Shown one piece after another: positions 10,842 to 13,943 of a stretch of 64,000 nucleotides of DNA (its first letter is position 1; the number at the start of each line of letters is the position of its first letter). Source of the DNA: Deltaproteobacteria bacterium (GTDB taxonomy: Bacteria > Desulfobacterota > Desulfuromonadia > Desulfuromonadales > Geopsychrobacteraceae). The position numbers were made by a program, and so were the translations under genes. The notes under the pieces were generated by a model. The model made no database searches. It saw nothing but the letters and a program-made list of their open reading frames with translations, and had not been told where the DNA came from. Location: contig JAJRRT010000107.1 of the NCBI GenBank assembly GCA_024279255.1, forward strand, positions 62,001 through 126,000, read 5' to 3'.

Positions 10842-11171
10842 TGCACACTCCTTATCTCAGAATTGTCTGCACAACTTAAATAGATCTATTTCTCTTGCCC
10901 CGAACCGATCACCCGAAAATCCTCGGTGTGATGTCGGGCCACGGCCGTGAATCTTTACAAAACAACAAATGCGCTCTTTCAGTACAAGTCTGAAAAGCGG
11001 CGTTAAAAAAACATCTATTTATTGTTCAAGCTCCCCTCATCCCATCAGATACGCCTGTCATTTTATTGAGGTACCAATATACGCCAATATTATATTTAAC
11101 CTGCCAATAAATCGACCCTGTTATCAACGATGAGTGTGCTATCTCAATGACTTGCAAACCCTGAATAGGCG

Positions 11172-11203
11172 AATGGCCAACCCGATGTTTTGGGTTGGCC
11201 ATT
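11172..11203 (-). terminator. perfect 12-bp hairpin AATGGCCAACCC-GATGTTTT-GGGTTGGCCATT downstream of the repeat-protein gene
   Basis: Inverted repeat read directly; about 50 bp after the stop of the 11252..11779 gene. Confidence 0.6.
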
Positions 11204-11251
11204 CTGTTAATCACGCGGAATAGCTTTGGGATTGTTCTGTTGACCTGTTGT

Positions 11252-11779
11252 TTAGCCGTTCACTTCCTCGCCTACGAAGTAGCCGATTTGTTCCTGATTA
11301 ACCGAAGAGTGTAATTCCTCGTCTACAAAGTAGCCGATCTCATCCTGGTTGATTGAAGAGTGAAGCTGCTCATCAACCCAGTATCCAAAGTTTTTACTAT
11401 CAACTGCTGAGTGCAGTTCTTCATCTACGTAGTAGCCAATTTCGTCCTGGTTGATCGAAGAGTGAAGCTGCTCATCTACCCAGTAACCGAAGTTTTTACT
11501 ATCAACTGCTGAGTGCAGTTCTTCATCTACGTAGTAGCCAATTTCGTCCTGGTTGATCGAAGAGTGAAGTTGCTCATCTACCCAGTAACCGAAGTTTTTA
11601 CTATCAACTGCTGAGTGCAGTTCTTCATCTACGTAGTAGCCAATTTCATCCTGGTTGATCGAAGAGTGAAGTTGCTCATCAACATGGTAGCCAAACTGGT
11701 CAGGGTTTATGCTGGCGGCCAGCAGTGCAGTTACGGCGAAGATACTAACAGTCAATACGCTCAAGATTGTTTTCGTCAT
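11252..11779 (-). CDS. secreted tandem-repeat protein: signal peptide plus nine 17-aa GYxVDExLHS repeats
   Basis: Start MTKTILSVLTVSIFAVTALLAA (matches the paralogue 13304..13573) then 9 x 17 aa; 22+153=175 aa, exactly filling the ORF. Confidence 0.85.
   Translation of the reverse strand: MTKTILSVLTVSIFAVTALLAASINPDQFGYHVDEQLHSSINQDEIGYYVDEELHSAVDSKNFGYWVDEQLHSSINQDEIGYYVDEELHSAVDSKNFGYWVDEQLHSSINQDEIGYYVDEELHSAVDSKNFGYWVDEQLHSSINQDEIGYFVDEELHSSVNQEQIGYFVGEEVNG
11355..11680. repeat. tandem DNA repeat, 102-bp period
   Basis: The GAAGAGTGAAG(C/T)TGCTCATC motif recurs at 11355, 11457, 11559 and 11661, exactly 102 bp apart. Confidence 0.9.
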
Positions 11780-12054
11780 GGTCTTTCTCCTTAGGCAACG
11801 ATTCAGAGTGAATCCGTTTCGATTATGTTTCTTGCCCAAGCTATATTCCAATGTCCGTGCCAACCTTAGAAATCCTGCAATATCAGCACCTTATGGATTC
11901 GAAGTTCCCAACGCCAATCTTGGATTGTAGAATATTCCACAAGGGCCCGTAGAATATCCGGGGTTCCCGCCGAAAACAACACTGAAATACTGTGGAACCC
12001 GATCGCACCAAAACTGGCTCTGACACGCAGAGCCAAACCTCAATGTTCAACAGC

Positions 12055-12936
12055 CTAATCAATCGTCTGCCCAATCCTCTGCCACCTCACCTCGATATTT
12101 ATACGATCCCAGGACCAATAGATCTTCGCAGCACGACCGCTAATCTTCTCTTCGGCGACAAAACCCCAGAAACGGCTGTCGAATGAATAGTCGCGATTAT
12201 CCCCCATGGTGAAATACATCCCTGCGGGGACTCTGAGCGGGGCCATGTTGTCACGTGGGCTTGCTTCTGCAGGGATGGTCTGGGGGTCCTTGTGCACCAC
12301 ATAATCTTCAACAAGCAACTGGTCATTCACCAGCAGTTGCTTGTCACGAATCTCAAGTTTATCTCCCGGCATCCCGATTACCCGTTTAATAAAATCGCGG
12401 GGACTGGCCTTGTCGGCATCTGGTGGGAACTCGAAAACAACGATATCGCCTCTCGCGATATGATCTGCTGTTTTGTCGATCAAAACATGGTCACCCACGA
12501 TAAGGGTATTCACCATACTGGCCGAGGGAATTTTATAGGCGCGGACATGAGCGTGTTTGATGTAGGCAGAACCGGCCAAATCACCACCAAGGCCAAAAAT
12601 CAGGTACATCGCAATGTAAACAACTGGGCGGTTATACTTTTTTGGCTGAAAATTATATTTCAATTTGCGCGCGGTCTTAACGCTATCGACAATAGCCAAG
12701 ACAAGAATCAGGATCGTCAGCAGAAAAAACAGGGCGAGAACGGTAAATGGGAGTTTGAGAGAGAAAAGTGTGATTGCCAGACCGAAAGCTGTAGAGAACA
12801 GGGCAAACAGGAAGCCTTTTTGTAGCTGTCCGTTGTAAACCTGCCCCAATCCCGGCATTAACAGAGTTAAGACAACGGCAGTCCAGGGTTTACGTGTTTG
12901 CCCAGCGCGCTTTTTCACCTCAAACTCAAAATCCAC
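12055..12936 (-). CDS. lepB: signal peptidase I
   Basis: IPSASMVNTLIVGDHVLIDK (Ser box), GDIVVFEFP, FIKRVIGMPGD (Lys box), GDNRDYSFDSRFWGFV. Confidence 0.95.
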   Translation of the reverse strand: MDFEFEVKKRAGQTRKPWTAVVLTLLMPGLGQVYNGQLQKGFLFALFSTAFGLAITLFSLKLPFTVLALFFLLTILILVLAIVDSVKTARKLKYNFQPKKYNRPVVYIAMYLIFGLGGDLAGSAYIKHAHVRAYKIPSASMVNTLIVGDHVLIDKTADHIARGDIVVFEFPPDADKASPRDFIKRVIGMPGDKLEIRDKQLLVNDQLLVEDYVVHKDPQTIPAEASPRDNMAPLRVPAGMYFTMGDNRDYSFDSRFWGFVAEEKISGRAAKIYWSWDRINIEVRWQRIGQTID

Positions 12937-13303
12937 AATTTTATTCCCTATTGATAAGTACCAGCTTCTTATTTAACCTTAAAAACAACAAAAGCCACCC
13001 TTCAGCACAAGTCTGAAAAGCGGCTTATAAAAGCATCTCTCACTAACCCGAGATCCCCACATCTCACCCCTCATAAAGATTGTCATTTCAATAAGTTGCC
13101 GATATATACCTGTTTCGCACCAGACCTGTCAACAAATCGACCCGTTTACCCTTGTGTGAGGTTACTCTATAACGTGCAGGGCCAGAACAGGTGAATGGCC
13201 AACCCGATGTTTTGGATTGACCACTCTGTTGGTCACGTGGAATAGTTTTGAGGTTGTTCTGTTTAGCTGTGCACGTCCTCGGCTACGAAGGAACTCGTTC
13301 TGA

Positions 13304-13573
13304 TCAACCGTTACCGTGGTGGACTGGATCTACATTGTAACCAAAGTCTTTAGAATCAATGGCGGCATGAAGATCATCGACGTTGTAACCAAAATCCTTA
13401 AAATCAATTTTGGCATGATCTTCATCGACGTTGTAACCAAAGTCCTTATTATCGATTTTGGCGTGTTGTTCATCGACATTGTAGCCAAACTGATCAGAGT
13501 TTACGCTGGCGGTCAGCAGTGCAGTTACGGCGAAGATACTAACAGTGAGTACACTCAAGATTGTTTTCGTCAT
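13304..13573 (-). CDS. secreted tandem-repeat protein, paralogue of 11252..11779 (four ~16-aa FGYNVD repeats)
   Basis: MTKTILSVLTVSIFAVTALLTA signal peptide nearly identical to the paralogue; AKIDNKDFGYNVDEDH AKIDFKDFGYNVDDLH AAIDSKDFGYNVDPVH. Confidence 0.8.
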   Translation of the reverse strand: MTKTILSVLTVSIFAVTALLTASVNSDQFGYNVDEQHAKIDNKDFGYNVDEDHAKIDFKDFGYNVDDLHAAIDSKDFGYNVDPVHHGNG

Positions 13574-13943
13574 GGTATTTCTCCTTAAAGAAATATTCAG
13601 GTAGAATCGCAGAATCCGTTACAGTTATGTTTCTTACTAGGTTTATAATCCAATGTCCGTGCCAATCTCTAAATATACGTAATATCAGCAGGTTACGGTC
13701 TTCGCACTGCCAAAGCAAATCTTAATTTGTAGAATACTCTACAAAAGCACATAGAATATTCGGCAGCACAACAAACAATCCCCCCTAAAGTACAGTGGAA
13801 CACATCGTCCCCCTGCCATTCATAATGGCTACAACCCGCTTTTCTCTGCGGAATAGGTATGTTTTTCAACCGTGCGCTCAGGATCATTTCCGGATTTGGT
13901 AGACTGTATATGAAGCAGATCGACACCGATAAAGGAGCTGAGC

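Follow-up and report, generated by a model that had tools for sequence, protein, structure and literature searches.

A lineage-restricted family of exported acidic repeat proteins with a candidate sigma-54 link to metal and envelope stress

The window (the whole stretch of DNA analysed, 64,000 nucleotides) contains two repeat genes, here called A and B, which belong to a previously unnamed family confined to one bacterial family (marine, Desulfuromusa-like). Our preferred reading, to which we give a probability of about 0.5, is that A and B are lineage-restricted, exported, acidic and probably disordered repeat proteins forming one arm of a sigma-54 two-component regulon for envelope or metal stress, the metal likely being copper. 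Since their on-switch is shared with copper-efflux genes, both proteins are probably stress-induced and periplasmic or secreted.

Repeat genes A and B, their shared segment and the intervening lepB

The features of the region are as follows, with the strand in brackets.

10959..11961 (-): first copy of the duplicated segment (promoter, gene A and 3' flank)
11252..11779 (-): repeat gene A, 175 aa, with a signal peptide and then nine acidic units of 17 residues; profile match E=3.8e-20
11849..11863 (-): sigma-54-like promoter TTGGCACGGACATTG, 69 nt ahead of the ATG of gene A
11927..11940 (-): palindrome GTGGAATATTCTAC, 63 bp upstream of the A promoter, proposed response-regulator site
12014..12036 (-): terminator-like hairpin that follows lepB and precedes the A promoter
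12055..12936 (-): the genome's second lepB, for signal peptidase I, between the repeat genes
12982..13763 (-): second copy of the duplicated segment (promoter, gene B and 3' flank)
12992..13026 (-): terminator-like hairpin of 14 pairs between gene B and lepB
13263..13308 (-): what is left of a fifth unit in gene B, frameshifted (VDQNEF...FVAEDVHS*)
13304..13573 (-): repeat gene B, 89 aa, with a signal peptide and then four units of 16 residues
13651..13665 (-): sigma-54-like promoter TTGGCACGGACATTG of gene B
13729..13742 (-): palindrome GTAGAGTATTCTAC, 63 bp upstream of the B promoter
13751-13764: weaker second palindrome copy of gene B

Protein A consists of a 22-residue signal peptide followed by exactly 9 x 17 aa, with aromatic residues present, and the 51-nt/102-nt array in its gene (11264-11694) scored up to 636 in TRF. 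The first-pass annotation had counted these nine 17-mers correctly; the alternation that it gave for the whole array was strict (SINQDEIGYYVDEELHS / AVDSKNFGYWVDEQLHS) in units 2-8 but did not extend to the divergent units 1 and 9. Its description of two exported proteins with near-identical signal peptides also held, that of B differing from that of A by a single A->T, as did its four units of about 16 residues in B. The fifth unit of B had gone unnoticed; its remnant lies past the stop codon of B and is encoded in other frames. The units of both proteins share the core [D/K]-x-[I/F]-G-Y-x-V-D, and the signal peptide makes export of A and B plausible.

Together with the flanking DNA at their 5' and 3' ends, A and B represent a segmental duplication, one segment being present twice. 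Chance cannot account for the repeat array or for the duplication, both of which lie far beyond it. In the sister genome G023 the order B-lepB-A was kept and both repeat genes had decayed, A having lost its ATG and acquired a stop and B having lost its signal peptide. Decayed repeat genes and a relic with promoter and 3' flank, the coding sequence gone, were seen in G023 on contigs C139 (L039/L077) and C153 (L089); the relic gave an alignment score of 47 vs a shuffled maximum of 28. The decayed genes and the promoter-plus-3'-flank relic indicate rapid birth and death of the cassette; gene death was common among the repeat genes and array length was variable.

The lepB gene between A and B had been proposed to be dedicated to the two repeat proteins, which would be its substrates, or to be co-regulated with them. 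The genes are indeed adjacent both in the window and in G023. However, terminator-like hairpins were found on both sides of lepB (behind gene A, too, there is a segment homologous to the B-lepB hairpin region, at 10959-11009), lepB itself lacks the palindrome/sigma-54 element, and another signal peptidase I on contig C51 of the same genome scored better than the window lepB. When the pairing was sought elsewhere, as the first-pass annotation had suggested, no lepB was seen beside other repeat genes except at the sister locus in G023, where the repeat genes have decayed beside an intact lepB. The other repeat genes adjoin a kinase/AEC-permease pair or sit elsewhere. Close relatives of the window lepB occurred in 4/9 genomes of the genus, and in G024 lepB was present with no repeat gene nearby. 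Because of the flanking hairpins, the lack of a shared promoter, the other lepB and the absence of lepB from other repeat loci, we regard this gene as a bystander, and a dedicated or co-regulated signal peptidase as hardly conceivable. The accessory signal peptidase I encoded by this lepB is extended at its N-terminus by a multi-TM region (weak DUF5683 match).

The repeat-protein family and selection on its units

Searches of Pfam, NCBIfam, PHROG and PDB with the repeat proteins gave no credible match, in agreement with the earlier remark that no family was recognised; the few scores above the cut-off were repeat-inflated, nearly all of them without any single passing stretch. When the 44 genomes of the taxonomic family were searched with A, weak relatives were found in a quite unrelated location, flanked by a divergently oriented sensor kinase and by a permease of the AEC family, and a scan of the homologous permease loci revealed that this slot is occupied by short exported proteins with the same type of signal peptide and different repeats. 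The units were 18-mers in G031 (INFDQELGDVNDSNLNAA) and G021 (DYGDDVLEHTWTMNDKGP), a 20-mer in G029 (DRVGINQYGELASNDSTLPE) and a 21-mer in G008 (LDDRELGIGEYGDHASVDTPR). The family pattern is an Ala-rich signal peptide followed by acidic units of 16-21 residues, most of which share a D-x-E-[L/F]-G core; the core of A and B given above is a changed form of it. In G049, which belongs to another family of the order, the kinase-AEC permease slot contains a 109 aa exported protein without repeats (L176, 836-1165), with a TTGGCAC element upstream; elsewhere the slot may hold unrelated accessory proteins.

A family profile built from the signal peptide and first units matched 16/136 genomes of the order, comprising 16/44 in the window's own family and 0/92 outside it. 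The profile search added arrays in G002 (two), G017 (two), G022, G023, G038 and G008, and array sizes ranged over 2-9 units of 16-21 residues. A genome scan with the relatives as queries gave matches in Desulfuromonas sp. BM509, Desulfuromusa sp. BB25 and AUK122; NCBI taxonomy places Desulfuromusa in Geopsychrobacteraceae, Desulfuromonadales. An earlier scan of genome contigs with query P0001 gave no match, and no relatives were found on plasmids by tblastn or among viruses in the viral-contig scan. Two further candidates were rejected, namely a Gemmatimonadetes match (L152, 37%) lying antisense inside a Mur-ligase-like gene, and L003 in the window's own genome (G000, E=0.05), a weak match without a repeat array.

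Nineteen family members with intact genes were tabulated. The hydrophobic N-terminus could be aligned in 12 of them, showing that a Sec-type signal peptide, with predicted cleavage, is conserved across members. The 19 members had a pI of 4.05-4.6 and a net charge of -6 to -32, with 0.4% Met, 0.2% Cys and 0-7.6% His, the last being absent in several arrays.

Within arrays, pN/pS between units was 0.00-0.48 at a pS of 0.2-1.0 (pairwise Nei-Gojobori, 15 arrays), indicating that the unit is under purifying selection. In G038, the four complete units compared encoded identical protein (pN 0) at a pS of 0.32. Between species, the unit was strongly changed. Minisatellite expansion without protein function would fit the variable array length and the decaying copies, but every array had a pN/pS below 0.5, promoter and signal peptide were conserved, and the unit lengths were all multiples of three. 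The arrays are thus not merely recent slippage, and selection maintains the unit; we consider expansion without protein function very improbable.

A match of units within an array together with drift between species would also be expected if identical units stacked into a self-assembling extracellular matrix, either a functional amyloid or a beta-solenoid fibre, both suggested by the first-pass annotation. In CsgA and FapC, too, imperfect tandem repeats of about 20 residues come after a signal peptide, a layout similar to that of A and B. The identity of the G038 units despite silent divergence, an exported protein made up entirely of units and the aromatic residues of A would all suit a stacked structure. 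However, the repeats here are strongly acidic, and a negative charge of up to -32 net disfavours stacking without counter-ions. AlphaFold2 predicted no fold (pLDDT 37 for a single sequence and 47 for a 5-sequence alignment), which is weak evidence given the shallow input. Genes dedicated to secretion or nucleation were not seen beside the members, the Pfam and NCBIfam searches gave no curli/Fap match, and no Csg/Fap-type neighbours were seen on ORF inspection. A matrix role therefore appears possible but unlikely.

Shared promoter, kinase locus and copper-linked genes

A GTAGAATATTCTAC-like palindrome was present 60-63 bp upstream of a sigma-54-like TTGGCAC-N5-TTG element in 17/19 members, allowing <=4 mismatches in the palindrome and <=1 mismatch in TTGGCAC-N5-TTG. 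The latter element stands 52-77 nt before the start codon. Its -24 part is a textbook sigma-54 element, but in nearly all members the -12 part reads TTGA/TTGG where TTGC would be canonical, which is a point against the sigma-54 assignment. A second, weaker palindrome copy lies about 20 bp further upstream in gene A. The exceptions were the G038 gene, with a poor promoter match, and one of the two G002 genes, without a recognisable element.

As a comparison set, 328 upstream regions of ORFs of at least 150 aa in the same loci were used. The regions listed with <=4 total mismatches belonged to repeat genes, CusC, the kinase, the response regulator and an HMA-like (heavy-metal-associated) metal protein, the last identified by eye. 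A pattern scan of the 44 genomes gave 13 matches completing the palindrome (GAATATTCTAC), of which nine preceded repeat genes, three were promoters missing a repeat gene and one preceded cusC. In the window's own genome, the palindrome with TTGGCAC also stands in front of genes for a 4-oxalocrotonate-tautomerase-like protein and a Crp-like regulator (G000 C10, about 5490, minus strand; L087), and in G012 and G023 a TetR-like gene lies behind a comparable orphan element. Small membrane proteins behind GAATATTC...TTGGCAC (G012 C75, G016 C217, G027 C51) were left out of the regulon, since GC, the canonical form, stands at -12 and a good palindrome is lacking. A conserved small membrane protein of about 155 aa with an LGYPPPAYLI motif was observed behind a canonical TTGGCAC-N5-GATGC at L092, L093 and L094 (G016, G012 and G027).

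In many genomes the palindrome also occupies the intergenic DNA ahead of the kinase gene, whether or not a repeat gene is present, and repeat genes were divergent from the kinase in G006, G008, G011, G015, G021, G029, G031 and G036. The gene order in G031 was a HisKA and HATPase kinase, whose N-terminus is multi-TM by inspection, an NtrC-type sigma-54 activator regulator with a GSFTGA loop, and an HtrA protease. RpoN was encoded. The kinase occurred in 92/136 genomes of the order, far more commonly than the repeat proteins, and is thus probably older than they are. Within the family, repeat genes were present in 15/32 genomes with the kinase vs 1/12 without it (Fisher p=0.032, uncorrected for phylogeny); G038, a genome 88% complete, had a repeat gene and no detected kinase.

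Several genes placed behind this switch were related to copper. They included CusC and CusB with a heavy-metal-binding domain in G002, CusC/CusB in G031 (by sequence inspection) and CusC in G033, and in G027 CusC was divergent from the kinase with a partial palindrome between them. By inspection, contig C98 of G023 (L088) contained a frameshifted Met/His-rich (MDHG-type) secreted protein behind the palindrome element, within a copper/mercury-type island with a multicopper oxidase, a CopB-like protein, a MerT-like protein and three MerR-type regulators. Metal genes were a minority of the regulon targets, and in the window's own genome a pattern scan for the switch revealed no Cus operon behind it.

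The repeat proteins could also be precursors of short secreted peptides, the units being cut apart, for example by HtrA, to give species-specific signals or effectors. Yeast alpha-factor precursors serve as a model for repeat precursors cut into secreted peptides. The HtrA-type protease in the kinase operon would suit such processing, as would a signal peptide followed by many near-identical, species-specific units under purifying selection. However, a dibasic or other conserved cleavage site between units is absent and the switch is the same as for efflux genes, making a peptide precursor quite improbable. A pairing of pheromone and receptor was likewise disfavoured, since the sensor region of the kinase was conserved (about 60% identity) while the repeat units differed completely.

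Proposed role and comparison with known systems

In the preferred reading of a metal or envelope stress regulon, the conserved multi-TM sensor kinase would detect metal or envelope damage, and the NtrC-type response regulator would bind the palindrome and activate RpoN polymerase about 62 bp downstream at TTGGCAC-N5-TTG. In some genomes the same switch would control Cus-type efflux genes as well as small metal proteins, in others mainly repeat proteins. Sec and signal peptidase would export the repeat proteins to the periplasm or medium, where the many copies of a carboxylate-rich unit could bind and buffer cations or protect the envelope. The simplest role would be cation buffering or envelope protection by a disordered, multivalent protein rich in carboxylates. 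Metal binding, which the first-pass annotation had suggested, is indirectly supported by the promoter shared with copper-efflux genes. Classical Cu(I)/Ag(I) sites are lacking, as shown by the near absence of Cys and Met and by the arrays without His.

Two known systems offer parallels. In E. coli, sigma-54-dependent ZraR activates ZraP (PMC7657598), which PMC8836040 cites as a Cu(II)/Zn(II)-binding protein of the periplasm. The repeat proteins resemble ZraP in being exported and as probable accessories of a sigma-54 two-component system for metal/envelope stress, and their genes are often divergent from those of the kinase and regulator. In contrast to ZraP, they are tandem-repeated and acidic with no metal-site pattern shown, and the protease adjoining the kinase and regulator, unlike in ZraSR, is HtrA. 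No match to a ZraP model was found for A and B (Pfam, NCBIfam) or for six relatives (Pfam). Against the NCBIfam models, the kinase scored 204.8 bits for ZraS (cut-off 479) and the regulator 380 for ZraR (cut-off 760), both below the cut-off.

SilE is exported, disordered when free, has several similar metal-binding motifs and is encoded with a CusCBA-type pump (PMC5008109). The repeat proteins are similar to the SilE/PcoE sponges in being exported, probably disordered and possibly co-regulated with Sil/Cus-type efflux, cusC sharing their promoter architecture in G002, G031 and G033. However, SilE binds Ag+ through His/Met motifs, whereas the repeat proteins are essentially without Met and Cys, and the composition of the 19 members gave no sign of SilE/PcoE-type His/Met-rich Ag/Cu-binding motifs; the class of regulator also differs. 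The best reading is that A and B would have a role like that of ZraP or SilE by analogy, without being homologous to either.

A bolder interpretation, which we hold to be doubtful, is that these are exported repeats whose unit is kept identical within each protein and rewritten between species through self-recognition or species-specific peptides, and which are wired to a sigma-54 metal/envelope-stress switch. Self-assembly or processed peptides, if real, would account better than a generic cation sponge for the homogeneity within arrays and for the way in which units diverge between species.

What had appeared to be an isolated oddity is now an unnamed family with a candidate regulator, a promoter and a taxonomic range, and its function is directly testable. 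The natural series of arrays would be a useful system for studying the part that acidic repeats, disordered or self-assembling, play in the bacterial envelope during metal stress.
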